Part shown: positions 13,201 through 60,740 of the stretch, one piece after another | How the letters are laid out: every line of letters begins with the position of its first letter | Position numbering within the stretch: the stretch's first letter is position 1 | Source: Astropecten irregularis | Taxonomy: Eukaryota > Echinodermata > Asteroidea > Paxillosida > Astropectinidae | Length of the DNA stretch: 64,000 nt | Direction: 5' to 3' | NCBI GenBank assembly: GCA_963971285.1 | Contig: OZ020254.1 | Location: 11,532,001 to 11,596,000 of the forward strand | The notes under the pieces: generated by a model | What the model saw: only the letters and a program-made list of their open reading frames with translations | What the model was told of the DNA's origin: nothing | Databases searched by the model: none | Program-made: the position numbers and the translations under genes

Positions 13201-16200
13201 CTTGAGGTCTGTTCAGTTTATTACCATTACTGTGATCTTGGCTTACAGTGATGTCCTAAATATGGCCTGATAGAGTGTGAGGTTTGGCTTGAGGTCTGTT
13301 CAGTTTATTACCATTACTGTGATCTTGGCTTACAGCGATGTCCTAAATATGGCCTGATAGAGTGTGAGGTTTGGCTTGAGGTCTGTTCAGTTTATTACCA
13401 TTACTGTGATCTTGGCTTACAGTGATGTCCTAAATATGGCCTCATAGAGTGTGAGGTTTGGCTTGAGGTCTGTTCAGTTTATTACCATTACTGTGATCTT
13501 GGCTTGTGGTGCCGTCCTAAATATGGCCTCATAGAGTGTGAGGTTTGGCTTGAGGTCTGTTCAGTTTATTACCATTACTGTGATCTTGGCTTACAGTGAT
13601 GTCCTAAATATGGCCTCATAGAGTGTGAGGTTTGGCTTGAGGTCTGTTCAGTTTATTACCATTACTGTGATCTTGGCTTTTGGTGCTGTCCTAAATATGG
13701 CCTTATAGAGTGTGAGGTTTGGCTTGTGGTCTGTTCAGTTTATTACCATTACTGTGATCTTGGCTTATGGTGCCGTCCTAAATATGGCCTCATAGAGTGT
13801 GAGGTTTGGCTTGAGGTCTGTTCAGTTTATTACCATTACTGTGATCTTGGCTTTTGGTGCTGTCCTAAATATGGCCTTATAGAGTGTGAGGTTTGGCTTG
13901 TGGTCTGTTCAGTTTATTACCATTACTGTGATCTAGGCTTGTGGTGCCGTCCTAAATATGGCCTCATAGAGTGTGAGGTTTGGCTAGGTGACATCTAGAC
14001 CCAGCAACTGGCGTGCTGTATTCCCTTTATTAATTTTGGGCCTTTACATTTGTAATAGAGCCCCAGAAAATCCTATGATCATTTGAGAAAAATTGTACTG
14101 AAATTGTCCCCAAATCAAAAATCTGTCCAGTTTTCTATAAATTCACCACTCACTTAATCAAGTACCGGTAATATTTTGTTCTTTCATCCTGTCATTGTTG
14201 CAGGTGTAGGACCCTCTCCACAGCCGGTCAGCTATGCCTACAGCTGTCCCTCCAACCAACGGAGTACTCCTACTTCAACATGGATAAGCTCAGCACCTGG
14301 GCCGGCCCACAACACTGGAAGATCAAGCCCCACTCCAAAGGTCAGTACAGACTCCCCGAGCTTCCTCCCGTTGGGAAGGAATGGCCAGGGTATTCCCACT
14401 GGATGGTGGAGTTCCTTCCCAACCCAGTCTGTTTCCAGTCCCAGGAGATGTATTCACGCCCTGCTCCGTAAAAATCCTTGCCACGTTATGGACCGTTCCA
14501 ACTTTGCTTTTAAGTCCCACGTGTGTTTTACATACCACATGTGACCGAGTTTGAATGAGGTTTTCGTGTTTACCTGGGGTGCGTTCCGCTTGCGCGAACA
14601 TATGTGAACATGTTCGCGACGTTTGTGTTACGCTTGGATTTTGAAGTGGAACGCACACGCAACAAATGGTGAACATGTGTTGTGTATTGCGTCCATCTTT
14701 CATTCAATGTAGTTAGCCAACTTCAGCAAACACCTCCTCTACACTGTCAGCTATGTTGTGTTTGGCGAACAGTGCGTTCCGGTTTCAAAACGGTGCCGCA
14801 CATTTCGCGCCGTGCGCGTAGTTAGCTGGAGTAGAACGCACTCCTGATTGAAATTCGTCCTGCGATTGGTCAATGTGCACAGTTTGATTTACAGACCGGA
14901 AGGGTTCATCGGGTCCCTCCTATGCCAAGCCTCTAAAAATCATTTCCATCACTTTCTTGTCTCAGATTTTTTAGCAGATGATCAAATAATCCAGAAAGAC
15001 CCCTTTGAAAAAAAAAAAAATGTTCCTAGTCCTTTCCCTAGTTATTTCCTCTCGCACTTTATCTAAAACAACTGTCCGACAGGCTTTCAACCAACAGGCC
15101 TTACAGGAGTAGCTTGATTGAAAAGTTAACAAAGACAAATTGACTAGAGCGGGATTTGAACCAGTGGCCTCTGGAACACTGTACCAGCCTACCAGGGCTG
15201 TACCAACTGAGCTACCCAGCCTATACCCTATGTTGGTGGTGTATCTATTAGTCAATTATCTTAGCGTGGTTTCATGGCTTCTGACTGTCAAACGAGCAAA
15301 GATAATTGACTAAATAGGGACACCACCAACATAGGGCTGGAAAGCTCAGTTGGTAAGAGCACTGGTACGGTATTCCCAAGATCTCTGGTTCGAATCCTGA
15401 TCATTTTTTCTTTGTTCATTATTCAATGACTTCATTCAGTTTCCCTTGTGGTTATCTGATCAAGATAATTTGAATAAGATTGATTTTTGTATGTCAATTT
15501 GCCATTAGCCCATGTAGTTATGCTTTTTTTTTCAGGCATGAACTTTGCACCTGTTGCACATATTTGTCAGTTCTCTTATTAGTGGTTGTACTGATTTTGT
15601 TTGTTTTTAACAGACTCAGCCTTATCAGGCAACGGAGATGACAGTGACAAGAAAGCAAAGACTAAGAAGCCTGTGTTCAGGATAGACTACGAACAAGACG
15701 TGGACTTTGACAAGTACTTCTCAGAATCCAAGGTAGGAAGATGCAAGCCCCTAATCCAGACAGTCCCTTGCAGTCAGTTTCCGTTCCCGGGGTTGATTTC
15801 ACCAAGCCCTGAGTTTCGAAGGATAACCCATCACATTGGACCTATCCCACGTAGGGCTTCAATGCATCATAAAACCTACGATTGATAGTAAGTTACGAAG
15901 AGTTTGGTGAAATCAACCCCTTTTCTGTTTACCCCTGTAGGCCTTTTCTCTTTTCGATCTGTGTTGAAACCAACCCAGATCCACCCCGGTTTCTGCCTGA
16001 CAATTTTTGAACTGGATCAAAGAGACGCAATGTTCACGCTATGTTTTTGGAGAACCGGTTCATATGACGCAGATCAAGTCGAAAAATGCAGTTTGGAACT
16101 GGGTTGAGATTTTCACCCCTACCAGGGTTGTTTTCTTTAGAAGAGAGGTTTCGCAAGCGAACGGATACGGTTAGCGCGCCGGATACATCACCAGTATTTG

Positions 16201-25875: not shown

Positions 25876-25979
25876 ACCAATAACACATGAAACGAGAAAG
25901 CCTTGTGTAGTTTACGAGTGAAAATCTTTTTGCTTCACAGGAAACGTAGAGTATGGGCGCAAATAATATGATTCTACGA

Positions 25980-26219
25980 TCTACTGATCAATCACACACA
26001 GGGCTTCATACGTATAGCTACCATCTACTGATCAATCACACACAGGGCTTCATACGTATAGTGACCATCAATCACACACAAGCTTCATACGTATGGCTAC
26101 CATCAATCATACACAAGCTTCATACGTATAGCTACCATCTACTGATCAATCACACACAGGGCTTCATACGTACAGCTACCATCTACTGATCAATCACACA
26201 AAGGGCTTCATAGTTCATA
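25980..26219 (+). repeat. 44-bp satellite, left edge
   Basis: Units of CTACTGATCAATCACACACA plus GGGCTTCATACGTATAGCTA, partly shortened to about 35 bp. Same family as 33999-35228. Confidence 0.9.
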
Positions 26220-26222
26220 GTT

Positions 26223-26952
26223 TCCCCAGTAGTTCCTCCAATATAGAGTAGTGCCCCCCTAGTAGTAGTTCCCCCAGTAGTGCCCCCTAGTAGTTCCCCC
26301 AGTAGTTCCCCCAGTAGTTCCCCCCCAGTAGTGCCCCCCAGTAGTTCCCCCAGTAGTGCCCCCAGTAGTGCCCCCTAGTAGTTCCCCCAGTAGTGCCCCC
26401 TAGTAGTTCCCCCAGTAGTGCCCCCTAGTAGTTCCCCCAGTAGTTCCCCCAGTAGTGCCCCCAGTAGTGCCCCCTAGTAGTTCCCCTAGTAGTTCTCCCA
26501 GTAGTGCCCCTAGTAGTTCCCCCAGTAGTGCCCCCAGTAGTTCCCCCAGTAGTGCCCCCCTAGTAGTTCCCCCAGTAGTTCCCCCAGTATGGAGTAGTTC
26601 CCCCAGTAGTGCCCCCAGTAGTGCCCCTAGTAGTTCCCCCTAGTAGTTCCCCCAGTAGTGCCCCCTAGTAGTTCCCCCAGTAGTGCCCCCAGTAGTTCCC
26701 CCAGTTTGGAGTAGTTCCCCCTAGTAGTTCCCCAAGTAGTGCCCCCAGTAGTTCCCCCAGTTTGGAGTAGTTCCCCCAGTAGTGCCCCCAGTAGTTCCCC
26801 CAGTTTAGAGTAGTGCCCCCAGTAGTTCCCCCAGTTTGGAGTAGTTCCCCCAGTAGTTCCCCCAGTTTGGAGTAGTTCCCCCAGTAGTGCCCCCAGTAGT
26901 TCCCCAGTTTGGAGTAGTTCCCCTAGTAGTTCCCCCAGTAGTTCCCCCAGTA
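26223..26952 (+). repeat. 12-bp minisatellite AGTAGTTCCCCC / AGTAGTGCCCCC
   Basis: About 60 units, with occasional GTTTGGAGTAG interruptions. The complementary strand has runs of 4-5 G every 12 bases, a canonical G-quadruplex pattern. Confidence 0.95.
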
Positions 26953-27280
26953 CAGAGTACTGACAATGAAATCAATTCCATTGCATTTTAAGACACCAAT
27001 ATTGATTATTTACAAGATAACGTGATTTAGTATGTCATTTTATCATCTGGTCATTTCTTATGTTAGTTTCCCTTAATTGACGTTTTAAATGATTAAATAG
27101 TTGTGTTCTCAGTGAAGTAATTACAATGTAACAAATAAAAATCACTTTCATTGAGATAATCGATTGTGGTTTGAGTATTTTATTCAAAATGAGCGTTTTT
27201 CTGTGAAATGTTCATAAGATTAGATTGACAGTTATAACATTAATAAGTACTGGGTATAGGCCTACATACATGTGGTTATA
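26953..27280. other. Non-repetitive island inside the satellite complex
   Basis: AT-rich, no ORF or motif recognised. It contains an AATAAA at about 27136. Confidence 0.5.
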
Positions 27281-30200
27281 CCATCAATCACACACAGGCT
27301 TCATACGTATATCTATCATCAAACACATCCAGCTTCATACGTATATCTATCATCAATCGCATACAAGCTTCATACGTATATCTATCATCAATCACATACA
27401 AGCTTCATACGTATATCTATTATCAATCGCATACAAGCTTCATACTTATAACTATCATCAATCACATACAAGCTTCATACGTATATCTATTATCAATCGC
27501 ATACAAGCTTCATACGTATATCTATCATCAATCACAAACAGGCTTCATACGTATATCTATCATCAATCACATACAAGCTTCATACGTTTATCTATCATCA
27601 ATCACATAAAAGCTTCATACGTATATCTATCATCAATCACATACAAGCTTCATACGTATATCTATCATCAATCGCATACAAGCTTCATACGTATATCTAC
27701 CATCAATCGCATACAAGCTTCATACGTATATCTACCATCAATCGCATACAGGCTTCATACGTATATCTATCATCAATCACATCCAGCTTCAAACGTATAT
27801 CTATCATCAATCACATCCAGCTTCATACGTATATCTATCATCAATCACATACAAGCTTCATACTTATATCTATCATCAATCACAGACAAGCTTCATACGT
27901 ATATCTATCATTAATCACATACAAGCTTCATACACATATCTATCATTAATCACATACAGGCTTCATACGTATATCTATCATCAATCACAAACAAGCTTCA
28001 TACGTATATCTATCATCAATCACATACAAGCTTCATACACATATCTATCATCAATCACAAACAAGCTTCATACGTATATCTATCATCAATCACAGACAAG
28101 CTTCATACATGTATGTATATCTATCATCAATCACATACAAGCTTCATACTTATATCTATCATCAATCACAAACAAGCTTCATACTTATATCTATCATCAA
28201 TCACATACAAGCTTCATACTTATATCTATCATCAATCACAAACAAGCTTCATACTTCTATCTATCATCAATCACAAACAAGCTTCATACTTATATCTATC
28301 ATCAATCACAAACAAGCTTCATACTTATATCTATCATCAATCACAAACAAGCTTCATACTTATATCTATCATCAATCACAAACAAGCTTCATACTTATAT
28401 CTATCATCAATCACAAACAAGCTTCATACTTATATCTATCATCAATCACAAACAAGCTTCATACTTATATCTATCATCAATCACAAACAAGCTTCATACT
28501 TATATCTATCATCAATCACATACAGGCTTCATACTTCTATCTATCATCAATCACAAACAAGCTTCATACTTATATCTATCATCAATCACAAACAAGCTTC
28601 ATACTTATATCTATCATCAATCACATACAGGCTTCATACTTATATCTATCATCAATCACAAACAAGCTTCATACTTATATCTATCATCAATCACAAACAA
28701 GCTTCATACTTATATCTATCATTAATCACAAACAAGCTTCATACTTATATCTATCATCAATCACAAACAAGCTTCATACTTATATCTATCATCAATCACA
28801 AACAAGCTTCATACTTATATCTATCATCAATCACAAACAAGCTTCATACTTATATCTATCATCAATCACAAACAAGCTTCATACTTATATCTATCATCAA
28901 TCACATACAGGCTTCATACTTATATCTATCATCAATCACAAACAAGCTTCATACTTATATCTATCATCAATCACAAACAAGCTTCATACTTATATCTATC
29001 ATCAATCACAAACAAGCTTCATACTTATATCTATCATCAATCACAAACAAGCTTCATACTTATATCTATCATCAATCACAAACAAGCTTCATACTTATAT
29101 CTATCATCAATCACAAACAAGCTTCATACTTATATCTATCATCAATCACAAACAAGCTTCATACTTATATCTATCATCAATCACATACAAGCTTCATACT
29201 TATATCTATCATCAATCACAAACAAGCTTCATACTTATATCTATCATCAATCACAAACAAGCTTCATACTTATATCTATCATCAATCACAAACAAGCTTC
29301 ATACTTATATCTATCATCAATCACAAACAAGCTTCATACTTATATCTATCATCAATCACATACAAGCTTCATACTTATATCTATCATCAATCACAAACAA
29401 GCTTCATACTTATATCTATCATCAATCACAAACAAGCTTCATACTTATATCTATCATCAATCACAAACAAGCTTCATACTTATATCTATCATCAATCACA
29501 AACAAGCTTCATACTTATATCTATCATCAATCACAAACAAGCTTCATACTTATATCTATCATCAATCACAAACAAGCTTCATACTTATATCTATCATCAA
29601 TCACAAACAAGCTTCATACTTATATCTATCATCAATCACAAACAAGCTTCATACTTATATCTATCATCAATCACAAACAAGCTTCATACTTATATCTATC
29701 ATCAATCACAAACAAGCTTCATACTTATATCTATCATCAATCACATACAAGCTTCATACTTATATCTATCATCAATCACAAACAAGCTTCATACTTATAT
29801 CTATCATCAACCACATACAGGCTTCATACTTATATCTATCATCAATCACAAACAAGCTTCATACTTATATCTATCATCAATCACAAACAAGCTTCATACT
29901 TATATCTATCATCAATCACATACAGGCTGCATACTTATTATCTATCATCAATCACAAACAAGCTTCATACTTACATCTATCATCAATCACAAACAAGCTT
30001 CATACTTTTATCTATCATCAATCACATACAGGCTTCATACTTATATCTATCATCAATCACAAACAAGCTTCATACTTATATCTATCATCAATCACAAACA
30101 AGCATCAATCACAAACAAGCTTCATACTTATATCTATCATCAATCACAAACAAGCTTCATACTTATATCTATCATCAATCACAAACAAGCTTCATACTTA

Positions 30201-33200
30201 TATCTATCATCAATCACAAACAAGCTTCATACTTATATCTATCATCAATCACAAACAAGCTTCATACTTATATCTATCATCAATCACAAACAAGCTTCAT
30301 ACTTATATCTATCATCAATCACAAACAAGCTTCATACTTATATCTATCATCAATCACAAACAAGCTTCATACTTATATCTATCATCAATCACAAACACGC
30401 TTCATACTTATATCTATCATCAATCACAAACAAGCTTCATACTTATATCTATCATCAATCACAAACAAGCTTCATACTTATATCTATCATCAATCACAAA
30501 CAAGCTTCATACTTATATCTATCATCAATCACAAACAAGCTTCATACTTATATCTATCATCAATCACAAACAAGCTTCATACTTATATCTAGTATCAATC
30601 ACAAACAAGCTTCATACTTATATCTATCATCAATCACAAACAAGCTTCATACTTATATCTATCATCAATCACAAACAAGCTTCATACTTATATCTATCAT
30701 CAATCACAAACAAGCTTCATACTTATATCTATCATCAATCACATACAAGCTTCATACTTATATCTATCATCAATCACAAACAAGCTTCATACTTATATCT
30801 ATCATCAATCACATACAAGCTTCATACTTATATCTATCATCAATCACATACAAGCTTCATACTTATATCTATCATCAATCACAAACAAGCTTCATACTTA
30901 TATCTATCATCAATCACATACAAGCTTCATACTTATATCTATCATCAATCACATACAAGCTTCATACTTATATCTATCATCAATCACATACAAGCTTCAT
31001 ACTTATATCTATCATCAATCACATACAAGCTTCATACTTATATCTATCATCAATCACAAACAAGCTTCATACTTATATCTATCATCAATCACAAACAAGC
31101 TTCATACTTATATCTATCATCAATCACATACAAGCTTCATACTTATATCTATCATCAATCACATACAAGCTTCATACTTATATCTATCATCAATCACAAA
31201 CAAGCTTCATACTTATATCTATCATCAATCACAAACAAGCTTCATACTTATATCTATCATCAATCACAAACAAGCTTCATACTTATATCTATCATCAATC
31301 ACAAACAAGCTTCATACTTATATCTATCATCAATCACATACAAGCTTCATACTTATATCTATCATCAATCACATACAAGCTTCATACTTATATCTATCAT
31401 CAATCACAAACAAGCTTCATACTTATATCTATCATCAATCACATACAAGCTTCATACTTATATCTATCATCAATCACATACAAGCTTCATACTTATATAT
31501 ATCATCAATCACATACAAGCTTCATACTTATATCTATCATCAATCACATACAAGCTTCATACTTATATCTATCATCAATCACAAACAAGCTTCATACTTA
31601 TATCTATCATCAATCACAAACAAGCTTCATACTTATATCTATCATCAATCACAAACAAGCTTCATACTTATATCTATCATCAATCACAAACAAGCTTCAT
31701 ACTTATATCTATCATCAATCACATACAAGCTTCATACTTATATCTATCATCAATCACATACAAGCTTCATACTTATATCTATCATCAATCACAAACAAGC
31801 TTCATACTTATATCTAGTATCAATCACAAACAAGCTTCATACTTATATCTATCATCAATCACAAACAAGCTTCATACTTATATCTATCATCAATCACAAA
31901 CAAGCTTCATACTTATATCTATCATCAATCACATATACAGGCTTCATACTTATATCTATCATCAATCACAAACAAGCTTCATACTTATATCTATCATCAA
32001 TCACAAACAAGCTTCATACTTATATCTATCATCAATCACAAACAAGCTTCATACTTATATCTATCATCAATCACAAACAAGCTTCATACTTATATCTATC
32101 ATCAATCACAAACAAGCTTCATACTTATATCTATCATCAATCACAAACAAGCTTCATACTTATATCTATCATCAATCACAAACAAGCTTCATACTTATAT
32201 CTATCATCAATCACAAACAAGCTTCATACTTATATCTATCATCAATCACAAACAAGCTTCATACTTATATCTAGTATCAATCACAAACAAGCTTCATACT
32301 TATATCTATCATCAATCACATACAAGCTTCATACTTATATCTATCATCAATCACAAACAAGCTTCATACTTATATCTATCATCAATCACAAACAAGCTTC
32401 ATACTTATATCTATCATCAATCACAAACAAGCTTCACACTTATATCTATCATTAATCACATATACAGGCTTCATACGTATATCTATCATCAATCACAAAC
32501 AAGCTTCATACGCATATCTATCATCAATCACATACAGGCTTCATACTTATATCTATCATCAATCACATACAGGCTTCATACGTATATCTATCATTAATCA
32601 CACATACAGGCTTCATACTTATATCTATCATCAATCACAAACAAGCTTCATACTTATATCTATCATTAATCACATATACAGGCTTCATACGTAGGCCTAT
32701 ATCTATCATCAATCACAAACAAGCTTCATACGCATATCTATCATCAATCACATACAGGCTTCATACTTATATCTATCATCAATCACATACAGGCTTCATA
32801 CGTATATCTACCATCAATCACATACAGGCTTCATACGCATATCTATCATCAATCACATACAAGCTACGTATATCTATCATCAATCACGTACAAGCTTCAT
32901 ACGTATATCTATCATCAATCACATACAAGCTTCATACGTATATCTATCATCAATCACATACAAGCTTCATACGTATATCTATCATCAATCACAAACAAGC
33001 TTCATATGTATATATATCATCAATCACAAACAAGCTTCATATGTATATATATCATCAATCACATACAAGCTTCATATGTATATATATATATCATCAATCA
33101 CATACAAGCTTCATACTTATATCTATCATCAGTCACATACAAGCTTCATACGCATACTATCATCAATCACATACAGGCTTCATACTTATATCTATCCTCA

Positions 33201-33528
33201 ATCACATACAGGCTTCATACGTATATCTACCATCAATCACATACAGGCTTCATACGCATATCTATCATCAATCACATACAAGCTACGTATATCTATCATC
33301 AATCACGTACAATTAGCTTCATACGTATATCTATCATCAATCACATACAGGCTTCATACTTATATCTATCATCAAACACAAACAAGCTTCATATGTATAT
33401 ATATCATCAATCACATACAAGCTTCATATGTATATATATCATCAATCACATACAAGCTTCATACGTATATCTATCATCAATCACGTACAAGCTTCATACG
33501 TATATCTATCATCAATCACATACAAGCT
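27281..33528 (+). repeat. 35-bp satellite array, about 178 copies
   Basis: Unit: TATCTATCATCAATCACAAA then CAAGCTTCATACTTA, with a HindIII site in nearly every copy. The core (about 28140-32440) is highly uniform with ATACTTATA; the flanks carry ATACGTATA and more variation. The unit lacks TAA, TAG and TGA on the + strand, so frames of 827 and 1234 codons arise; they end where TCTAGT or ATTAAT variants occur. No promoter or protein character, so not annotated as CDS. Confidence 0.97.
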
Positions 33529-33619
33529 TAATATGCAAATTAGGCTTGCCCTTCACCGACGTGGATGAGCACTGTATACTCAGTGCTTGTGAGAGCATGT
33601 GAGAAAAAATCACATGCTT

Positions 33620-33691
33620 GCTCGGGTGGGATTCGAACCCACGACCTCCTGCTTACTAGTGCAGATGCCTTACCTGCTAGGCCACCGAGCT
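33620..33691 (-). tRNA. tRNA-like sequence / tRNA pseudogene, left arm
   Basis: On the - strand it reads A box TGGCCTAGCAGG, B box GGTTCGAATCC, a perfect 5-bp T stem and a 4-bp D stem. Acceptor pairing is 6 of 7 and the anticodon loop seems to be 8 nt, so a functional tRNA is doubtful; more likely a SINE head. Confidence 0.5.
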
Positions 33692-33892
33692 AGCTGGGGT
33701 CTGCAGGGTGAATCGAATCCAATATCGCGGCGGGTACCGCAGTAAATCATGAATATTAATTGATTTTGGTCGGGAAATAGATAATATGCAAATTATAGGC
33801 TTGCCCTTCACCGACGTGGATGAGCACTATATACTCAGTGCTTGTGAGAGCACGTGAGATATTGGATTCGATTCACCCTGCAGACCCCAGCT

Positions 33893-33964
33893 AGCTCGGT
33901 GGCCTAGCAGGTAAGGCATCTGCACTAGTAAGCAGGAGGTCGTGGGTTCGAATCCCACCTGAGC
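33893..33964 (+). tRNA. tRNA-like sequence / tRNA pseudogene, right arm
   Basis: Mirror copy of the left arm: AGCTCGG acceptor, GCCT/AGGC D stem, GTGGG/CCCAC T stem and TTCGAAT T loop. The anticodon stem closes only with an 8-nt loop (ACTAGTAA). Confidence 0.5.
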
Positions 33965-33998
33965 AAGCATGTGATTTTTTCTCACGTGCTCTCACAAG

Positions 33999-35228
33999 CA
34001 CAGGCTTCATACGTATAGCTACCATCTACTGATCAATCACACACAGGCTTCATACGTATAGTGACCATCTACTGATCAATCACACACAAGGCTTCATACA
34101 TATACAGCTACCATCTACTGATCAATCACACACAGGGCTTCATACGTATATCTACCATCTACTTATCAATCACACACAGGCTTCATACGTATAGCTACCA
34201 TCTACTGATCAATCACACACAGGGCTTCATACGTATAGCTATACCATCTACTGATCAATCACACACAGGGCTTCATACGTATAGCTACCATCAATCACAC
34301 ACAGGCTTCATACGTATAGCTACCATCAACTGATCAATCACTCACAGGGCTTCATACGTACAGCTACCATATCATGATCAATCACACACAGGACTTCATA
34401 CGTACAGCTACCATCAACTGATCAATCACACACAGGACTTCATACGCGTACAGCTAGCTACCATCAACTGATCAATCACACACAAGCTTCATACGTATAG
34501 TGACCATCAACTGATCAATCACACACAGGCTTCATACGTATAGTGACCATCTACTGATCAATCACACACAAGCTTCATACGTATAGTGACCATCAACTGA
34601 TCAATCACACACAGGGCTTCATACGTATAGTGACCATCTACTGATCAATCACACACAGGGCTTCATACGTATAGCTACCATCAACTGATCAATCACACAC
34701 AGGGCTTCATATTCATACGTATAGCTACCATCTACTGATCAATCACACACAGGGCTTCATACGTATATCTACCATCTACTGATCAATCACACACAGGGCT
34801 TCATACGTATAGCTACCATCAACTGATCAATCACACACAGGGCTTCATACGTATAGTGACTATCAACTGATCAATCATACACAAGCCTCATACGTATAGC
34901 TACCATCAACTGATCAATCACACACAAGCTTCATACGTACAGCTACCATCTACTGATCAATCACACACAGGGCTTCATACATATAGTGACCATCAACTGA
35001 TCAATCACACACAGGGCTTCATACGTATAGTGACCATCAACTGATCAATCACACACAGGGCTTCATACGTACAGCTACCATCTACTGATCAATCACACAC
35101 AGGGCTTCATACGTATATCTACCATCTACTGATCAATCACACACAAGCTTCATACGTATATCTACCATCTACTGATCAATCACACACAAGCTTCATACGT
35201 ATATCTACCATCTACTGATCAATCACAC
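33999..35228 (+). repeat. 44-bp satellite, right edge
   Basis: About 28 copies of CATCTACTGATCAATCACAC plus ACAGGGCTTCATACGTATAG, with CAACTGATC and GTGACC variants. It is the 35-bp unit plus an 8-bp TACTGATC insertion. Confidence 0.95.
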
Positions 35229-37270
35229 ATGGTTTCTGTCGCATAGAGCAGTGATGGTAGGACTGTAGTGTTGTATATCATAATCTTGGTCTTGAGTTTG
35301 ATGTTGTGTCGTGACCAGAGGCGCTTATACAGTGCTCCAAATGCTCTGGAAGCTGAGTTTATAGTACGGTGGTCAATCTCCACATCTGATGAGTTGTTGT
35401 TGGTAACAGTGCTGCCAAGATATGTGAAACTGTCGGAGCATTTTAGGATCTCACCATTGACTTAATTGTACTTCAGGTTGCTGCGGGTTGTGATCCAGTG
35501 GTGACTGCTGGTGTACTTACTCTGTTTTAGTTGTGTTTATTTTCAATCCAAATTGAGTGGCTGCTGCAGCGAAACGGTTGACTACCGGTATTTCTTGGAT
35601 GTATTATCTAGTTCGGTTTACCATCCAACCGTGTGCGGATGTATACACATTTGGTCATGTTGACACTCATGGTTTCAACCACAGCAGCCAGGTACAATGT
35701 AAAGAGTGATGATGCGAGCACACAGCCTTGTTTCACCCCGTGACGTACTGGGAAGGAGTCACTGATATCCCCATCAATAGACACTCTAGCTGACATATTG
35801 TCATGGAGTAGTGTGACCATTTTTACAAATTTCTCTGGGCAACCGTAAGCATGTAGGACCTTCCATAATGTTGACCTATCCACTGTATCAAAGGCCAATA
35901 CTGAAGTTGACAAAGACTATGTATAAAGGCTGGTTTTGTTGTACTGTGTAAAGAGTAAAGATCACGTCAGCTGTTGACCTTGATGTTCTTAATCCGCATT
36001 GGCTCTCTGGTAGTATACTCTCAGAGACAGTCTTAAGACGATTTGAAAGGATCTTTGCAAATATTTTCCCTGATAGTGATAGCAGAGATATTCCTCGCTG
36101 GTTTCCACATTCACACCTGTCACCCTTTTTCTTGTAGATGGTAACTATGAGGGCATCCTTGAAATCTTGAGGAAGATCTTCATTGTGCCAGCAGAGGTCA
36201 TACAGGTGAAGGAGTTGACGCTTCAGTTCCTGGCCACCATGTTTCAGGACGTCTGCTGTTATACCATCTTGACCTGGTGCTCTCCTGTTTCTAGTTGATT
36301 TTAGAGCTTTGTCAACCTCTTCAAAGGATATGGGATTATCTAGTTCCTCTCTTGCTGAACAGACAGTTAGCTGACATGTTGCGTTGACATCAACATTTCC
36401 GTTCTGGTTTAGCAGTTGGTAGAAATGCTCTTTCCAACGGTTGTATATGCTATCCATATCTGTAAGCAACTGGCACCCATCAGCAGACTTCACTGGAGAG
36501 ACTGTGTTTGTGCGAGAGCCAAAGATCACCTTAAGTGCTGAAAAGAGTCCCTTTGAGTCATTACTGTCTGCAAGCATCTGTAATTCTTCTGCTTTCATAC
36601 TTCACCAGGTGGTTTTCATGTTCCTAATTTCTTTTTGCACCTTGGCTTTTATGTTGCAGAAATAAGCCTAATGCTTGCGGCAGTATTTTCCTTCAAATGA
36701 CACAGGTATATGCCCTGTGCTTCTCCTCTAAAAGTGCTTGAATTTTGTCTTCATTGTCACTGAACCAGTCTGTTGTTTTCCGTTTTGGGTGACCGAGAAC
36801 CTTACTAGATGTTGAAGACAACGCTTCCTTTAGATCACTCAATGTATCTTCAACGCTGAAAGGTTCCTGCATTTCCTGTTCCAGTAGTACTCTGTCAATT
36901 GCTTGTGCAAGGGCAATTTGGTGGTGTTCTTTAGCCAGTTTCTGGATATCTATCTTTTTAGAAGTAGAAGATGCAAGTTTGCATCTTGGTATTGTGACGG
37001 AAAGCCGGACTAGGCCTATGGATCTTACATGTACAAGATAGTGGTCTGTTGAGCATTCTGCACCCCTCATATCTCTTATCACCAGTACTTCCTTTATATC
37101 CTCTGAATGGGTGATCACATAGTCCAAAAGATGGAAGTGTTTGGACCTTGGGTGCGTCCAAGTGTAGAAGTGTATGTCAGGTTCATTGAAAAAGGTGTTT
37201 AATAGTGATGCTGAGATGATGCTGTGTGCAAAAACTGATTAGAAAGGTCGCAGTTAGAATTCTTTTTCCC
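35229..37270 (-). pseudogene. Decayed non-LTR retrotransposon (LINE): endonuclease and reverse transcriptase
   Basis: On the - strand, from 37250 downward: FFNEPDIHFYTWTHPRSKHF, LLDYVITHSED and ECSTDHYLV (C-terminal APE-type endonuclease); then RAPGQDGITADVLKHGG, IYKKKGDRCECGNQRGISLL, FDTVDRSTLW, and HGVKQGCVLASSLFTLYLAA in place of the catalytic (F/Y)xDD block; then FTYLGSTVTNNNSSD and LYKRLWSRHN. Frames break several times (for example near 35900 and 36650), and the copy is cut at both ends, the 3' side at LLYATET against the 44-bp array. Clade not resolved. Confidence 0.9.
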
Positions 37271-46060: not shown

Positions 46061-47915
46061 TTAATCCTTACCGGAACGCGGTATTTTACTGGCACTGTGT
46101 GGTGCTTCACCATCTGATGCATGCGATCTCTTCTTTGACCCTTCACTTGACCCATAACCTCTGACCCCATCGGGTGACGCGGCATCTTGCATGAGACTGG
46201 ACGTGGACGGTCCGGAATCCAGCGCCTCTCTGATTGAGGCTTCTATTTGACTGGCGGCGCTGCTTTCACTCTTACCTGAGGCTCTTGGCGTCTGGGTCTG
46301 GGAATCCGCTCCGTACAGCGAGTCGTATATCTGGGCTTCCACCAGACGATTGATGGCATCGCTGACTGATGAATTCCGCATGCCGACTAGGTCGGGAGCG
46401 GCAGCGTACAGGACGGCCGACGATCCATTCAGACCATCCTTCAGGTGAGGATAGGCTGCCGATTTGAAGGCTGGGTGTAGCGGCCAGCCAATCCACTGTT
46501 TGGTCAAGCCTAGAGAGTGGGAGGCCAGAGAAGCAGCATGCTGACCATCCAGGACATAGCATTTATCGGTCAGTTCCGGGCTGATGCCCAGACCAGGGGC
46601 CAGCAAGGTCTGCGCAAGGTAGGCCGTAGGCTGCTGGTGAGGAGGAGGCTGCTGCTGCTGCTGCCCGGCTAGGCTCTGCTTCAGAAAACTGAAATTATTA
46701 TGCATTGCTTGCTTCTCGCTCATGGCACGCAGCCTCTCGGCGAAGCTCTCAAACGGCCGGTGTATGGCACTGATAGCCGACATCTGCTGGGCCTCCTGTT
46801 GGTACACACTGTTGGGCAAACTCTGTGAGTTGCTGCCCTCCCCAGAGTCATACTCTGTCTTGATCTTCTGGGGACCCATCCGCTTGCCGAGACGTTTTAG
46901 GTGTCGCTCCTTGACCTTGTACTCCAGCGTAGAATGAGGAACACCGTAGACGTTGCCCGCACGGGTAACAGTCATCTCTCCTCTCTGGACAGCATTAACT
47001 GCCTGCATCAGGCAATCACGGTCGTAGCAGCGATAGCGCCCCCGCTTAGGACGTTTCCCCGACGCATCTTGAGAGCAGCCGCTTCTCTGCGAGGACTGAG
47101 GAGAAGAGGGCTTGCTCGAGCCCAAACTGTAGCCCTGTCGCCAGCTCTGCATATCCATGCCGTCTAGACCATCAGACTTCCTGTTGTCATCATCGGAATC
47201 CTGGTTCTCCGAGGAAGAGTTCATGGGCTTGTACAAGGGGATCTTGAGGTCAGGAAGGGCCTGTGGGAGCGGCTGCTTGATAGATGTCTTCAAGGCTTTG
47301 GGGTCGCAGCCGTTAACCTTTGCACAGGCCTGTTCTGCAGTCAAATGACAATGGACAAGTGTCTCTAACAGGTGCTGCGGCAGCTTGGGCTCACTGTCCT
47401 CATGCTGCCTGCTCTTCACGATGTTCTCCTGATGTAACCGATCGGCATCCAGACCTGCCACCAGACTGAGCCGGACGCAGGAGGACACCAGGTCCTGGAG
47501 AATCTCCTGACTGATGCCATTCTCCAGTTCTTGATCAAGGTGTTTGACGGGGATGGTGTGGCTAACCAAGAAGCTGCGAAGCCTGGCCACGATGTCCTCA
47601 CCCTCATCCTGAGGGCGATACCTGTCGGAGAGGTACTTCCCGTCGGGGAGAAGGTCACCATCCAGGCCAGCTTTCCCCCGAAGGTCAACCATGTCTTGCA
47701 CATCAAGGACGTCACTGTCATCCTCCATCACAAGGAAGCTGTGCCGGTTGAGATGGTTGCGGATGGTGGAGCGGGGGATGCCAAAGAGCATAGCTGCCCG
47801 TCGAGTTCCGACCTTCCCCGAACGTACCTCCTGTAGAGCAAGCTTCAGGTCATCTTGGGTGTAGGACGCTGACCCATAGCCTTTGGACGGACGACCCATT
47901 TTGTTCTTACTTGGC
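46061..47915 (-). CDS. Mblk-1: Mblk-1/LCORL-like terminal coding exon with two pipsqueak domains
   Basis: A single 1855-bp exon. Counting from MGRPSK (ATG at 47899), pipsqueak 1 is about residues 13-52 and pipsqueak 2 about 285-336; between them is an acidic/Ser-rich linker with KRPKRGR just before domain 2, a likely nuclear signal. [13 protein letters not shown] patch lies near 425. The ATG at 47899 sits inside the exon because the upstream acceptor (TTTGCAG, exon from 47915) keeps the frame open, so it is probably not the start codon, though a short isoform could use it. Confidence 0.93.
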
Positions 47916-50900
47916 CTGCAAACAACAAAAATCCAGTCAAACCAATGAACACATTCTGATTATCAAATCTCCATATCAATGGACATGACAGCACAAAGAG
48001 GAAACAAATTCCCTCTCTTTTCAGAGACACAATACTAATTTCCTCCCTTAATCCTGACACCCAGGGGTATTCCCCCAAACCCTCCAAGAGGTAGTAGAAT
48101 GAAACCAAAACCAAAGGTGGATTTTAATGCTCTGTACAGTGAACTATTAATACTGTACATTACAGCTTTGGTAGTGAGAGCATAGTCAACTAAAACATGA
48201 TTGAATGCAGGGGCGGAGTCTTTTTTTAATGCACTGTGCATTGAAAATAAATTACACGTCTGTGCTTTGCTGTGGGTCACTAGTCCTGGGGCCAATATCA
48301 CGGCCCTGCTTAGGACGAAAATTTGCTAACCATGAAATTTCTGTCTTAATAAAAACAGGATTGACCACCAAACTTCCGTGTGTTGTTGTGACCACGAAAA
48401 TCAAAATGGAAATCTTAATAGTGGTTTGTTTATAGAGCAAGACATTTTGTGCTAAGCAATTTGTTTGTGCTTAACAACCCCATGAAATTGGCGCCAGGAC
48501 AACGGCGGGTATAAGTTCATGGATGGAGCCATAATAAATGCATCCACACCACGGCTCTGAGAGTATTGATGAGATATTGACGAGATCGACAAGACTAAAT
48601 TGACAAGATACTACTAATCCTATCAGCACCACATGACCACTAGCAAGTTGTCCACTAACTGACTAACAAGCTAGTGGACACGAAAGAAGACAAGATAGAC
48701 AGGCATGCAACTTTTCCTCGGATCAGCTGATTTCCTCTTTTTTTTTCACTTCAATTTTATGCCATTGAAAATAGAAAAACACTGCACAAAATCTTGTAAA
48801 GATTGGAATTTCCTCGTTTTTTGTTAAATCTGAGTTGCATGCCTGGATAGATGAAGCATCATGGACACTGTCACACTTATCCATCTGACCAAGCAGAACA
48901 ACCACCAAGCCATCGGCTACAGTCACCAGGGGTCAATTTCACCAAACTCATTGTAACTAACTTTCAATTGTAGGACTTATGATGCATTGCAGCCCTACAT
49001 AGGATATGATGGTTTATCCTTCATAACTCAAGTTACACTCGATCATTGGGCTTCGTGAAATCAACCCCAGGGCCTCCTGTCATCCTAACTCCGGGCACTC
49101 ACCTGTGAACCGTGATGGAGGGAACCTTCAGCATGTGTTGCTTGTTGGACATGCCCAGCATCCCGTCCGCGATGGAGGCCTCCCGGTCTAGGTAGCCCTG
49201 CCGACTGAGGTCCAGGGGCTGGTTCTGCTCCCCGTCCGAGCCGTACTCCACCTCGTGGGTGTGGATATCATTAACTGTAGAGAAACAAAAAAATAGACAT
49301 AACATTTCAATTTTGCCTTGAACAGTAAAAGGCTTTCAGGAATTCACTGACTACCTTACTTGGGGACGAGGGCCCTTTTCCAGACCTCGGCTCTGGTTCA
49401 AGCTTCGGTTCCGGTTTGAAAAGGAAAGCAGAACTTCAGCTTCAATGAAAAAACATAACCTATATTTTCAGCATGGAGCCGGAGACAGAGCTAGAGCCGA
49501 GGTTTGGACAATGGGCCTAGGTACCCTCTTCTTATTCGATCCTTGCCATGAAGAGCCTTTACAAGTCTTGCTTAATTCAGATTGAGTAGGAGTGGTTACG
49601 CCAAGTGGAATCTGTTATGGCCTTTTTGTGCTTACTAGAGCTGCTACGCGTGAAATACAGGGTGTCCCAGAAAAAAACGCAACACTGTGACGGGACCCAT
49701 ATTGTTTATCACTTCAAGATTCAGATATGTGATACAACCATGTCTTGGCTATCACCATGTAGAATTTAAGCATATTGGGGCTGAAATTGGCGAAAATATG
49801 ACCAATTGAAAGAGTACTTCCTAAAAACAAATTTGCAAGGATAACACGCACAGTGGTCAATACGCACATAATGTGTATAGAAGATGAAAATCGGGTTTTG
49901 AGGTTAGGTGATTCAGTCTTAGTTTTTTCACTTAATATTAGTCCAGATGTGCTCAAATTGTACATGGTGATAGCCAAGACATGGCTGTATCACATATCTG
50001 AATCTTGAAGTGATAAACAGTTTAATTTTCATATAATAGTTCTTGACACAAGTGTTGCGGTTTTTTTGGGACACCCTGTATATTTCATGGAATCCGTAAG
50101 CAAGAATTTTGGTTAGAGAAGAATTTATAGGCTGACGGTGATTATTGTCTGTTAACACACTGACATAAGCATTCTGCAGAAAGCGAGAAAGAAGACTCTC
50201 CCTTTAACTACGCTTTAATAACGTAACGTAATGTAAAGCAAAAACAGTCTGCTATCATACTTGCAAGTGGAGAATTTTTGCTTATGGTAACAGATTCCAT
50301 GAAATTGGGCCCTGATCATTTTTATTAAAAAATCTTCCCAAATTTAAATGAAACTGCCAAGAGCCTACATTATTTTTAATATATTGAGCATGGAGAATTT
50401 CACTGAGCCAAACTTTCCAATAAGCAGCATAAGCAACAAACGCGCCACATGATTTACATTGATTGATGTCGCTTCCATGAATGTCTACAGGAGTGATTGA
50501 TCGATTGATCGTGACCGTACCTGATTTTGCCAGCCACTGCTCGGCTCGGAGTAACCTCTGCTGCTGAGACGTGTGCTCCGAGCGTCCAGGGCGCCCATTG
50601 GTCAGCCCACAGTCGAGCTTGTCTATGTAGGCCTGATGCTGTGCGATAGTGTCCTGGAATGGGGGAAGATACGAGAGATTACGTTGAGGAGGTTTCTCAA
50701 GACTATAACAATGGTTAGTCCTGATATCCAAGGCTGACTGTCCGGCGATTTGATATCAGCAGGCAGAAACACTACAACACAGCAGGTGCACAGCCTACAC
50801 TCACACAGCTTATTACAAAATCCCAATGGCATGGGGTCCTGGACCCACTTAGGGACACATCCGGACACAAGATGCTCAGCGGTGCAATCTAAATACTTCC

Positions 50901-53900
50901 TTGTAATCGCTGTCCTCAGATCTGAAGAGAAACAAACCGTCACGATGATATGACGGCAACACAAACATCAGGCTACCGAACAGACTTTCTCGATACGTGC
51001 CCAATGTAGAGGGTGGGGGGGGGAGAGGATAGAGAAAAAAAGGCAAAAAAAAAATACTGACAACGCCAGCGAACTTAGGATGCTGACAATTTCGGTCTAA
51101 TCAGTTCCACTCCAAGTTTATTTCCTCCCTCCAGCAATTGCTGAAGGCATCAGGTCCTGCAGTGACTGAACACCTGAGGAGTCGGCCGCAGAAAGAGAGA
51201 CCACGTTAACAACAAGAGGATCCTGATCACGGAGGGAGGGTAGGGGAAAGAGAAGGGGGGGTTAGGGTTCCGTCAGGGTTTCTTATCGGTTCCTCCATCA
51301 GGAACCGACTGGAGGAAGTTCAATCAGCCACAAAAGATCAAAAGGCCACGGCTGTAAGTGACCATTTCCAAGCCCAATGAATAAGCCTGCATGCCGTTGT
51401 GCACATCAACCCCCATTTCTATCTCATCAACGGAACCGATCGGTCAGAGGACAACAGACTGGTCGTCCGTTGAACGTTGTCTCTCTCTACCTCAAAACCC
51501 ATCCAATAATTTATAGACAATTTCCTATAACTATCAGCATGATTGACAGCTACGTGTACCAGGTGCACAAAATACAGACTACCCAGGCATGCCAGGTTGA
51601 AAAAACAACAACTCTTACAAGTTATCCAGTATAATAAAGATCAACCTCAAGTTTGTAAAATTTGAGGTTTTTTCGTATTTTCACGTATTCCCATTTGATA
51701 ACCTCTTGTTTTGAAGTCCTCAAACAAATTACTGAGTATGGACTTTTCACACTATCCAAAATCTTGGGGTTGAAACCGGATCGAACCCAGAGATTTTGTT
51801 CAACCCTTTTCACACTTGAAACATTTCAACCCCGAGCCAACCCTGGTAGGATGGCCTATTAAACCATAGAGGAAGGAAACAGACCAGATCGAAATCAACC
51901 CTGGTAGGGACCAGGGTTGAAAATCTCAAACTGGTTCCAAAATGCATTTTCGCCGTGATCCATGTTGTTATGAGCCAGTTCACTGAAAACGTAGTGTGAC
52001 AGAATCGAGATTTTTTCAACCCTTTTCACACTTTCACAAAAAATTCAACCCCGAGCCGTCCTGGGTAGGATGGTCTATTCCGTATTGAAATCAACCCTGG
52101 TTGAGAGCAGTGTTGAAAATCTCAAACCGGTTCCATAAACTGTACATTTTTCCCAGTTATCCATGTCGCATGAGCTAGCCAGTTCACAGAAAACGTAGTG
52201 TGAACATTACATCTCTATGATGCAATTCAAAAATCTGCCGTGCTGAACCATAGATCCAAGTTGGTTTCAACATGATTCGAAAAGGAGATAGTGTGAAAAG
52301 GCCAATACAGTACACTGTCATTTGATATGGTCATGATGGTGTTCTGAACATAATATAGCTACTCCTCGCTTTAATGACGGTGAGAATTTGGTTCCTGTCC
52401 AGCAGGTTTTGGAGGGACTTGTCCCAAGTTGCACTCCCTCCCCTCCCCCTGTAATGGAAGCCTGATGTACCATCTGTTCACAGACACATTATGAAAGACT
52501 TTGGACTTGGAGTTTAAGAGTTATGTACTGTATATGTGTTTCTGATGCATAATATATCATACTTTCTACATATAGTCCTACATGTAACTGTGCGTACAGT
52601 ATAAGTATTAAGTTGTACAGTGCACTAGTATGCATGTACAAGTGCGCATTAAGTTTTCTCTTCTTTTTATTTCCTCCACAAATTAGAACCTCATCAATCA
52701 CCGTAGGGCAACAGGAAAACCAATTTCATGATGTTTATGAAGAGTCGCCACGGACGATAATAGATGGGGCATGTCCCTATATTACAGTTTGAGGTTTCAC
52801 CAAGTGTGAATCTAGCTCCCACTGAGTTACATGTAACCCGATAACCCCAAACATGTACATTGTACAGTATTTAATATGACTGCATAATATGGAGTCACGA
52901 GACTTGGGGTCGCTTCACAAAGCACTAAGATTGAGCAGCTTAAGTGTTTGAAAATGTACATGTACATGTACATGTAGCTAAGCAAAGAGTGATGTCACAT
53001 TACAAATCACTATATGGTGATAATGGACTCAAAGTTATGAAGAATCTAAGTAGTGTTTTGTAAAATTCACCACCAAAACGGACACCATCCACCGAGTGAC
53101 AAGTGAACACAGGGGGTGCGATCCAATCCAGCTAACTACGCGCACGGCACACGATGTGCGCCACCGTTTTCAAACTGGAACGCGCTGTTCGCCAAACACG
53201 CACACAACGTTCACCTAACATAGCAAACGGTGTAGAGAGGGGTGTTTGCTGAAGTTGGCTACCTACTTTGAATGAAAGATGGACGCAGTATGCAACACAT
53301 GTTCGCGGTTTGTTGCGTGTGCGTTCCACTACAGAATCCAAGCGTAACGCAAGCGGTAAGCACCCAGGGTGTGGCCATATGCAGGACCAGTACCCCACAT
53401 CATCCAAAACAAAACTTTCCCGGCAACTTCATACTTCATACTTCATACTTTTTTCACAGTTTTCTCAAAACGTGGGCACCATATGGGACTGGGAATTTCA
53501 CAGATGATAATTTCTGCCCATTAATCTGCATTTCTTTGACAAATGTATCGTGTCCATGCTGTACAAGTGTACAGTATACAGTGTACACTGGCTGCACAGA
53601 AAGATTTGGGGGAAATTTGCCACACATGTCCATGTATAAATCAAAAACTAAACCACTGTATCGTTCGTAGTTTCACAATCTATTGATGATTCCTTTCGTT
53701 TCTTTTGACTTTTGGATTGTAATTTTTTGGGGGAGATTTGGTTTTCTCAGTTGTATTCTCTGTTTCAGTCTTGATCAGTGTATGGGAAAGTCCCTTACCT
53801 CCACCGCTTGTTGCCTAGCCTGGCAAAGTAGACACTTTTCCTCGCCCTTCCAATCCTCGCAGATTTGGTCTTCATCGTCTTCATCTACACAAAACAAGCA

Positions 53901-55883: not shown

Positions 55884-57173
55884 CTGCAAGAACAAAAAAA
55901 CACAAAATGGCATCTTAAGTTACCGAGTCCACAATAAAAATAAGGCTCATGGGTACGCGTGTACATTGTATGCACTACAGACAACTGAACCAGTGGCACA
56001 TTATTGTTTGCCTACATGAACATTTTAAAGTTGTCAATTAAGCAAGGCTTTAGGGAGGGTCTGAAATTAGGGTTTCTCAAATACATGTTAGCTGAAAAAG
56101 GGTGAAGGGTGTCCGAAACAGCAAACACTAACAAGGTGTCCAAAATATGCCCACACACACAGCTAAAACCATGCACTAGACGTACATGTAAGTTGTTTCA
56201 AACCAGTTTTCAGATTACTCTTAAGAAAAAAGTTGGACTGGAGTGGAATTTAAAAAATGTCAAATTACACACATAACCAAGAAACAGTACAACCTACTCA
56301 AGTCAAAATTTACATGCAACTTGAACAATATTTTCTGAAGTGTTTATTTTTTATGAATCTTACTAAAAATTAAGGAACATTGTCCATGCGAATTTACCAA
56401 AAACAAAAACAAAATTGGTACAAGCGATAGGCCTCCATGTACGGTACATGTAACTCCTTCAATAAGGGAAAAACTCAGTGAAAAGTTGAAACGATAAAGA
56501 AACATATGCGCAGGTGTGACTTGTAACCTGAGTTACATGTATCGTGAACTTGGTCATAGATACAGATACAACGAACGATATGTATGTAGGTGGTGGTGGG
56601 ATGGAACAGTGGGAACAATTGCCACAAAGCTGAGTGCTCATTCCATCCCTCTTTGACATTTAATAAATATGTCTTAGTCAATTCCCATTGATGTCATGGA
56701 TACTGTGTAAAATGTACATTGTAAATTGTGTAATTCAGCAGATCTCTAAAAAAGAAAAAAAAAAATTTTTCAAAGAGGGAGAGAGAGAAAAGATTGTGTA
56801 CAACGCAGTGTGTATTGCATATTCTCCTATCGGACGTGATGGAGCAAAACTGACTTTTTGCTAAACCATGTCCATGTTTTACATTGTACATGTACATACT
56901 GTATGTATACACTGTACTCAACATTTTTGCAAAGTTAGTATTTTTTCATGAATGCTATTTATAATTCAATGTGCATCAAATCAAACTGCATACATGAACA
57001 TATGTACATGATGTATTTAACACAATGTTTAAATAGTACATGTAGGCCTGAAGGCACAGCCCAGTGTTTTTACAATACATGGATAGGCCATATTATGTAT
57101 TTTTCCCTAAGTTTTCAAGTGGTTCGCAAAAGCCCAATGCCTTCGTAAAAAGTGTACCGTACTATAACACGCC
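55884..57173. other. Repeat-poor intronic sequence
   Basis: AT-rich, ACATGTAC-rich; no exon or repeat family recognised. Confidence 0.5.
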
Positions 57174-59231
57174 GGGCAATTCCACGCAAGTGCGACATGA
57201 GGGTCAAAATTTCAAAATGCTTTTCTCCCAAATATCTTTTGCAAAAGTGACAGGGTATATGCTGAAGCTTCTAGAAATAAAAAAAAAATTGTCTCTAGAC
57301 CAATTATTTTGTAAGTTACGGCACTCTGAAGTCGATGGGCTACATTTATACTGCAAATTGGAGGTAAGAACAGAAAATGTATTTCTTTTCATATTTTTCA
57401 TCAATCTGATGATATCTAATTTAATTTTGTGTTAAAATACCAGGTTTGAGTGTATGTTTTAAGGAACATAATTTTTATTTAAATAGATTTTGTAAGATAC
57501 CCATGATGCATGATCAAAATAATTGCTTAGGGTTGATGTAATGTCAGTCACGAAAAACAAAATATTTTCCTATAAAAGTAAGCAAGATAGTAATTAGAAT
57601 CTGCCCTTCATTATTTTCTTGGTTTGGGCTGTGGGTAGTGCAGTAGTGTTATAAAGTGACCTGATGATTGTTATTTATAGATTTGGTAAATGGTACAAAT
57701 GTGTAATGTCAGTCACAATGTAATGTCAGTCACGATAAATTGTGATATTGTAATGTCAGTCACGTCAATACTTTTAGTCAATGGAAGAAATTTTGAACAG
57801 TGAATGGGCTGATAACTTCTCTAGTATAGTACCCACATTCCTACAATGACATTTAATCATGCTGAAATAATGCTCTTAGATCTAACATACTTGTTTTTGG
57901 TATTTTAAACCCACCATCTTCAATGTTATGCTTGTAAGTGAATAATAAATGTGTTTTTTTTGTCAAATGCACCCCATTTTAACACTTCATTCAACATGAA
58001 TAATTATTTACATTTGATTGAAGTAAAAGTAATTTTATGCAGTCTTTTACTTTTTTGAATAGGGGCATGACATTACAAGGGTCTCACACTACATAAGTTG
58101 TACAAGAGAGTCAGGAGGATGCCAAAGACAGCAGCAGAGAGACAGGCTGAGTGCAGGAAAAATGTGAAAGAAAGAGGATTAAATGCAACATACAAGCAGA
58201 CAAGGAAAGAAATGCGGAGGAACAAAGGTCACCAAAAAGAGAAAAAGACGACAAACTATCTAAGACTGGTCAGAGAAAATTGTGAAAGGTGTTGATACAA
58301 TTGCAGTCAATGATTGGTGTGTTATTGACTAATTATAAGGTGAGCCCTTCCCTGGGGCATTAATTTAAGTTGTGTGTCCGAATGACAACTCCGAAGTGTC
58401 GTCATGGTAAAAGCTGGTGATAATACAAGAAGTGGCCATTGAGATAGGACAAAATACACTATAGTACACCACAGACACAATAAGGAGAAAGTTGGAAGCA
58501 CAAATGCCTGTGAACATAACTTTGATGGCTTACAGCAATGCTTAATTTTTTTTAATATACATGTACATGTATACATAGGTATACTATGTACATAATATAT
58601 CAATGTACACTGTACATGTACTGTACATGTACACGTACACGTATACAGGTGTACAGGTGTGTAGCCTTTTTTTCTCTCATTTCCAAGCTTTAATCATCTT
58701 AGAATTGTAATTATTCCTTTAAATATAGTATAAACAGTCAATTGATACTTCTCTTGTTGACAGAAAGTGTATTATTTAAGTGTTGAATTGTTGCTACTGT
58801 TAACATCTGTTATGGATCAAACACGTAATGTCAGTCACGGTAATGTCAGTCACGGAGGTTAATTTGCATATTTGTTAAGAAATTAATTAAAAGTTTTTCC
58901 CATCTTACTACATTTGTTTGTAACCACATTAGCAATAATGTCATATGGATTTAGACCTGCAGCACTTTTAACTTGAAGAGAAATTTTAAAAATATGTTTG
59001 CCCTTTTTGGGTTGCGTCGCTTTTTGTAATGTCAGTCACGGCAATAAACAACCCCCCTGGTCGGAAGAGCTGAACATGAAATTTCAAAGTTTGATTACTG
59101 TAATGTGTATTGAGGTCCCAGTATCCCTCATGCCAAACATGGTTCTGCTGGCTGTAATTGTTTAGACATCAGAGCTGATTTGATATTCAAAATGTGTAAA
59201 AAATGTAATGTCAGTCACGGTGGAATTGCCC
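57174..59231. mobile_element. 2.06-kb TIR element with eight TAATGTCAGTCAC iterons
   Basis: Ends GGGCAATTCCAC and GTGGAATTGCCC, both next to CGCC on the outside. TAATGTCAGTCAC occurs at 57539, 57704, 57721, 57751, 58826, 58841, 59027 and 59206, all in the same orientation; the last runs straight into the right end. One short basic ORF lies inside. Superfamily not recognised. Confidence 0.8.
58122..58295 (+). CDS. Small basic ORF inside the iteron element
   Basis: Starts MPKTAAERQAECRKNVKERG and ends NYLRLVRENCERC (57 residues; an in-frame ATG at 58098 would add eight). Very rich in Lys/Arg. The MPKTAAERQ...R opening resembles short basic N-terminal regions I associate with some invertebrate transposon proteins, but that is recollection, not a match. 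It may be the first exon of a transposase now lost. It is the only sizeable open frame in the element. Confidence 0.4.
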   Translation, partial: PKTAAERQAECRKNVKERGLNATYKQTRKEMRRNKGHQKEKKTTNYLRLVRENCERC

Positions 59232-60740
59232 CGCCTCTTTTTTTAATAGCAAGATCAATATGAAAAATATACGTGTACTGACTCTCATGTGCATATTATT
59301 GATAATCTTCTGGCTTTTCTAATTGAACAAGTGACATTGAATTTCATGTACGTTGTATGATTCATGTCACACGACCAGATGACGTACACACATTTTTAAT
59401 GACTACATACAGACATATATCTTAATTATGCACTGCAGAGTCTGGTGTACAATTGTATAATTTCCATGTAAACTGTATACAGTCCGTATGTTACACAATC
59501 GCACATTGCAACGTGCACTGAACTGTATTAAGTTTTTAATATTATATTTAGTATGAAGTGTGTGCACAATACAATGTATTTTTGTATAATGTTTACATAA
59601 TTTTTGTATCAAGTTTTGTACTCAATGTAAAAACTATCAGACTACGTGTACATGTACATGTATAGGACATGCTTGGAGTTAGAACATGTAACTGTTTTTT
59701 TGCATTAGTCATTTTTGTACGTGTATCTGAATTTGTTAACATCAACGGTTAATAGTTTGTTACATCCCCTCTGTTTGTCTTGTCTTCCTGTCTGTCCTCA
59801 TCTGTGTTCTTGTATCTGTCCATTGTTCTTGTTTATTGTTTTAGGCTGTCTCCTACAAGCTCTGCTTATTACGACGGTCTCATACTTCCACTTTCTCAAT
59901 GTTCACATACATGTAGGTCATTGTATTTATCCTTTATCTATTTGTTTTTGCTTTCTTTGCTTTACAAACTATATTTCAAATATTTATTTTCCAATAACTA
60001 TGTGTTCTGCTGTACTTTATTTCATTTCATTGAGCAGTATGAAATAAATGTTTATCTGAATACTGTGTAGGCCTGTACAGTAGCTAAGGGTACGTGTAGC
60101 ATTAGCAGGATCCCCGTCGTAGGATCGAAACGTAAGCCCCTAACTTTCTAATCTCCAACTCCAAGCATTTTATATACATGTACATGAATTCCAGGTCATC
60201 ATTTTGGTTTTATACGCAGTTAATTAAGTTGTATTGATTTAATGTATAGTGTATACACGTGTACATGTATTATAAACATGTGTATGAACAGCATGATATG
60301 CAATGATGAACACAGCTTTGTACAGGTACCATACAGTGTATACTAATTAGTGACACTGTATGCATTCTACAGAGAGAGACCTGCATACTCAAAGGGACAT
60401 TTGCAGTGCATTATGCGATTTTTCATTTCTCGGCCCATTGTTTGTCATGTTTGTGCATGCAATAGGCAAACAATAGCAGACATGGTAAGCAATGGCAAGC
60501 TGGACTGGGATGATAATTTGCAGGTCACTACCCTGAACAAAGGATCCCTTGCCCCATATGGGGGACATTGGGGGCCAGTGTCTTTCAAAATTACGTTTCT
60601 CTTAAAAGTGTCAATGCTTTATTACATGTACTTGTTATTTTACCGTCTCATGTTCATTTCCTTTTTATTTATTATCTGAAGCAAACAGGCTCAGTACAAA
60701 AAACATGGTGTTACATGTATGTTCAAAACATTCAACAATG

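Follow-up and report, generated by a model that had tools for sequence, protein, structure and literature searches.

We identified an element of 2058 bp (57174..59231) in a 64-kb window of Astropecten irregularis DNA, the window being the whole stretch of 64,000 nucleotides that was analysed. The element is bounded by inverted repeats, flanked by a short direct repeat and occupied by eight near-identical iterons in a single orientation, and it is probably a non-autonomous DNA transposon of the cut-and-paste type, in which the iterons serve as binding sites for one of the system's own proteins. Because only one copy is known, mobility is something that we infer, and the binding of a protein to the iterons and the action of an enzyme in trans are likewise proposed.

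Inspection of the termini bore out the inverted ends, GGGCAATTCCAC, that a sequence-only reading had proposed. The pair is exact, starting at 57174 and, inverted, at 59231, and such exact 12-bp terminal inverted repeats are what a cut-and-paste transposon of the terminal-inverted-repeat type has. The element ends read GGG...CCC, and past the 12-bp repeat the two ends aligned no better than shuffled sequences. The CGCC found directly outside each end is plausibly a 4-bp target-site duplication (Table 1).

Table 1. Coordinates of the features of the element and its immediate flanks, numbered along the window.
Feature	Position	Strand	Remarks
CGCC, left copy	57170..57173	.	Candidate 4-bp target-site duplication, directly outside left end; flank inspection
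Left terminal inverted repeat, GGGCAATTCCAC	57174..57185	+	Exact, 12 bp
Iteron 1, GTAATGTCAGTCACG	57538..57552	+	Sequence match, alignment
Iteron 2, GTAATGTCAGTCACA	57703..57717	+	Only variant; last base A replacing G of CpG
Iteron 3	57720..57734	+	
Iteron 4	57750..57764	+	End of left cluster
GGGCATGACATTAC	58063..58076	+	Possible relic of inverted right end (13 bp missing); tentative
58-aa ORF, MPKTAAERQ...	58119..58295	+	Coding unsupported: length and K/R share no greater than chance gives
Iteron 5	58825..58839	+	
Iteron 6	58840..58854	+	Tandem with iteron 5
Iteron 7	59026..59040	+	
Iteron 8	59205..59219	+	Touches right terminal repeat
Right terminal inverted repeat	59220..59231	-	Exact, 12 bp
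CGCC, right copy	59232..59235	.	Candidate target-site duplication, directly outside right end

The eight direct copies of TAATGTCAGTCAC claimed earlier were all recovered as exact matches on the + strand between 57539 and 59218 (starts at 57539, 57704, 57721, 57751, 58826, 58841, 59027 and 59206), and no further exact copy was present in the 64-kb window outside the element. Alignment of the copies showed that the true unit has 15 bases, GTAATGTCAGTCACG, with the leading G present in all eight and the complete 15 bases in seven. The trailing G, which had been assigned to six copies, is actually found in seven; the sole exception, the 57703 copy, carries a CpG to CpA change at 57717. When up to two mismatches were allowed, TAATGTCAGTCAC matched ten places in the window against 2.90 expected, a number reached in none of 100 shuffles, and the only matches other than the iterons were at 24123 and 61665, with two mismatches each. 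The commonest 13-mer of the element occurred eight times; when the element was dinucleotide-shuffled 1000 times, no 13-mer occurred more often than twice.

We then considered the placement of the iterons, four of which lie on each side of the element middle. Their spacing is irregular (165, 17, 30, 1075, 15, 186 and 179), with 1.67 kb from first to last. The tandem pair at 58826/58841 and the abutment of the last copy on the right end were present as described, that copy ending at 59219 and the right repeat starting at 59220 (gap 0). The left end had been described as iteron-free, and indeed no iteron with up to four mismatches was detected on either strand of 57100-57538; when gaps were allowed, no degenerate inverted iteron was recognised at that end either, 50% of 5000 shuffles scoring equally high. 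Beyond the 15-mer the flanks have little in common, except for the pair 57748/59024, which is alike in 22 of 23 bases. Near-identical 15-mers with dissimilar flanks would be expected either of a young element or of a binding site under selection. An extra G follows the iteron in all four right-hand copies (58840-59220) and in none of the four left-hand copies; in two of the right-hand ones this G begins the feature that follows, another iteron or the terminal repeat.

The expectation for the ends was estimated by counting inverted pairs. With satellites excluded, the window contains 109 outermost exact 12-bp inverted pairs spanning 200-5000 bp, of which one, this element, has a 4-bp direct repeat outside and four others have one of 3 bp. 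As a control, the last 28.7 kb was shuffled 30 times; 4 of the 367 inverted pairs obtained had a direct repeat of at least 4 bp, which corresponds to about one per 109 pairs, so that the ends and the 4-bp repeat alone are close to chance, and the inverted ends on their own are weak evidence. The fit of the ends around the iterons exceeds chance. With the iterons fixed and the remainder simulated, a 12-bp pair enclosing all iterons, with an arm no more than 5 bp from a terminal iteron, arose in 3 of 3000 simulations, and the same pair with a 4-bp direct repeat in none of the 3000, in a post hoc test devised after the arrangement was seen.

According to the mechanism that we propose, the transposase of a full-length relative would pair and cut both GGGCAATTCCAC ends, and the eight 15-bp iterons, four each side of the middle, would act as loading sites for a ligand, either the DNA-binding domain of the transposase or a TNPA-like accessory protein. 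The iterons would raise the local concentration of this ligand and mark the right end, where one site touches the terminal repeat, and they may also regulate transcription of the element. The contact between iteron and repeat at the right favours a connection with recognition of the end. The sequence-only reading had suggested a DNA transposon with transposase-binding iterons. Its transposon with protein-binding sites stands as the best reading, given that the right repeat touches the last iteron, that the ends enclose all eight, that 4-bp repeats flank them and that no simulation reproduced this arrangement; the iterons cannot act symmetrically as transposase sites at both ends, because all of them point one way. 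Since one-way clusters on the left and right argue against symmetric synapsis, an accessory, end-marking or regulatory role was assigned to the iterons, accessory or regulatory action being no worse a fit than transposase binding. Several points speak against the transposon reading: a single copy is known, the terminal repeat plus duplication is at chance level for a scan of the window, the five frames tried gave no transposase remnant, the one-way iterons would leave the ends unequally bound, and the left end has no adjacent iteron.

The main rival to this reading, which we consider unlikely, keeps the transposon and makes its iterons sites for a host factor, a transcription factor or an insulator protein, comparable to the Su(Hw) row in gypsy. 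The single orientation, the irregular spacing and the absence of iterons by the left end are easier to reconcile with regulation than with end synapsis, and the reverse complement of the iteron contains TGACTGACAT, which we take to resemble TALE-homeodomain composite sites. However, the exact contact of one iteron with the terminal repeat suggests a role in end recognition, and a site for a host factor ought to turn up in other places too, whereas no match with zero or one mismatch was present in the rest of the 64-kb window, a small sample.

Two further explanations dispense with either the transposon or the binding function. A single-copy host regulatory cluster, with no transposon and with inverted ends and a flanking repeat acquired by chance, is very unlikely: although about one inverted pair with a direct repeat is expected in the window by chance, and a weaker candidate with a 3-bp repeat does occur at 49893-51500, the pair described here fits the iteron array to the base, and none of the 3000 simulations gave such a fit together with the 4-bp repeat. 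Slippage or gene conversion from the short tandem array (58825/58840) within a transposon, leaving by-products with no binding function, would bring neighbouring sequence along, but the flanks of the other iterons are little alike and the sites are up to 1.67 kb apart. We regard such an origin as highly improbable, even though two iterons are in perfect tandem, the copies are nearly identical and one pair also has common flank bases (22/23).

We investigated the coding capacity of the element. A Lys/Arg-rich ORF had been put forward as the only coding candidate, which was not borne out. The element contains four ATG ORFs of at least 58 aa, the longest of 84 aa. ATG ORFs of this minimum length also arose in 76% of 500 shuffles, and lysine plus arginine make up 31% in all three forward frames across the stretch of the 58-aa ORF. 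This ORF had no match in Pfam or PDB. Within or across the element, four more stop-to-stop frames were compared with Pfam, and no match came near a curated cut-off, two frames having weak ones (E 0.084 and 0.12), and a transposase remnant was detected in none of the five frames tried against Pfam. Non-autonomous copies lack a transposase by definition, and this copy was treated as non-coding. A possible likeness of the MPKTAAERQ... ORF to the N-termini of uncharacterised animal transposon proteins was dropped as evidence. A peptide pattern hit 13 stretches of viral contigs, none of which encodes a relative. Of two fragments of such a protein, one matched no family and the other matched OmpH at E 3.3; a search with these fragments matched one stretch, which contained no relative.

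The arrangement of the iterons was compared with that in known mobile elements. CACTA/EnSpm elements have many copies of a short identical TNPA-binding motif in both subterminal regions, where the motifs occur in both orientations. The element resembles them in having a repeated short motif on both subterminal sides, but its copies all have one orientation. A one-way row of near-identical binding sites inside a mobile element is known from the gypsy insulator of Drosophila, which consists of Su(Hw) sites. The likeness lies in the one-way row, the sites of this element being putative; the difference is that gypsy is an LTR retrotransposon, whereas this element has short inverted ends and lacks long terminal repeats.

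In Repbase, the length of the duplication and the match of the termini decide where a non-autonomous element is placed (PMC4455052). The element was compared with several known groups. The Sola2 families of Dictyostelium have 12-13-bp terminal repeats and 4-bp AT-rich (AWWT) duplications (PMC3627910). Both lengths agree with those of the element, but its candidate duplication is CGCC; the AT rule comes from Dictyostelium families, and here there is one insertion. No Sola2 transposase was seen in the element. Kolobok has a 4-bp TTAA duplication and ends of the form 5'-RR...YY-3' (PMC9587614); the candidate duplication of the element agrees in length and its ends in form, with CGCC in place of TTAA. 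KolobokP is described with a 3-5 bp duplication, with echinoderms and lancelets among its hosts, and with terminal direct repeats that measure about 450 or 660 bp (PMC9587614). That range covers the 4 bp found here, and the group occurs in echinoderms, as the element does, but long terminal direct repeats are absent from the element. Further groups are described in one source (PMC12730594). IS3EU is given there a 6-bp duplication and TAYGG...CCRTA ends, from fungal families, against the 4-bp CGCC and other ends of the element; Zisupton has an 8-bp duplication and hAT one of 8 bp, also 5-7, against 4 bp here; and EnSpm has CAC...GTG ends and a 3-bp duplication, against GGG...CCC ends and 4 bp here.

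The element seems an unassigned member of a common kind; lack of an assignment does not make it new, though it may plausibly represent an undescribed family. That it is the founding member of an undescribed lineage of animal DNA transposons, with GGGCAATTCCAC ends, a 4-bp duplication and directional iteron arrays that would let the transposition complex distinguish the two ends, is a speculation that we think quite unlikely to hold. If other copies exist, the 15-mer would offer a direct way to track down the autonomous element together with its DNA-binding protein, and would open the question why a transposon keeps its binding sites one-way. As a single copy, the element is one more unassigned animal transposon.

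Searches for related copies were carried out in the window and in sequence collections. No second copy was found in the window, blastn against the rest of it returning three matches of 21-28 bp (E 0.11-0.38). The 15-mer occurred once each in 15 contigs of a viral collection, and none of these 15 stretches had a second iteron core or the terminal repeat; we read these occurrences as chance. The 23-mer spanning the right-end junction was found in no viral and no genome contig, and an 18-base piece of the junction that includes the terminal repeat in one viral contig, which lacks iteron cores. Paired iteron cores no more than 30 bp apart were found in no viral contig and in four bacterial contigs, more than a naive base-frequency estimate gives. 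Three of the bacterial stretches contain two cores and one, L018, contains three; they were set aside as unrelated, being local bacterial repeats with other flanks, none of the four with the terminal repeat. Plasmids and phages searched by blastn had no match to the element. Because the collections are mainly prokaryotic and viral, these negatives say little about an animal element. In a literature text search TAATGTCAGTCAC had no match, and judged by title none of the matches listed for two shorter strings concerned such an element.

Within the element, GGGCATGACATTAC is possibly a relic of an inverted end, perhaps nested or rearranged, and this assignment is tentative. It is identical to the inverted right end except that 13 bases are missing; this match was tested after it had been sighted, and 0 of 300 shuffles gave a match longer than 10 bases. 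In gapped alignments of the surroundings of 58063, the score for the right end was matched by 4 of 3000 shuffles, a figure uncorrected for the prior choice of the site, and that for the left end by 659 of 3000. Because these tests came after the sighting, we drew nothing from the relic. Comparison of the left and right halves in forward orientation gave a score of 243 against a maximum of 230.5 in 200 shuffles, which the common one-way iterons may explain; in reverse orientation the score was 205.5, below the shuffle maximum of 237.5.

Elsewhere in the window, the 46061-47959 (-) frame contains a Psq-type helix-turn-helix domain and the 35888-36601 (-) frame a reverse transcriptase match (both Pfam), and two other window frames that were tried had no Pfam match. 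At 49893-51500, an exact 12-bp inverted pair, GGGTTTTGAGGT, has an ATC 3-bp direct repeat outside and may be another, weaker transposon candidate or due to chance. Two abutting satellite arrays at 9500-13985 have consensus units of 77 and 87 bp, which are alike in their first 30 bases but one and have a further stretch in common. At 25974-35229, a 35-bp unit forms an array of 6.2 kb, accompanied by arrays of a similar 44-bp unit on the left (25974) and right (33999), and the GC skew across these arrays is very strong (about -0.78). Five tRNA matches were detected in the window, two of them barely over the cut-off; those at 33618 (-) and 33893 (+) lie in the gap that separates the 35-bp array from the 44-bp array on its right.
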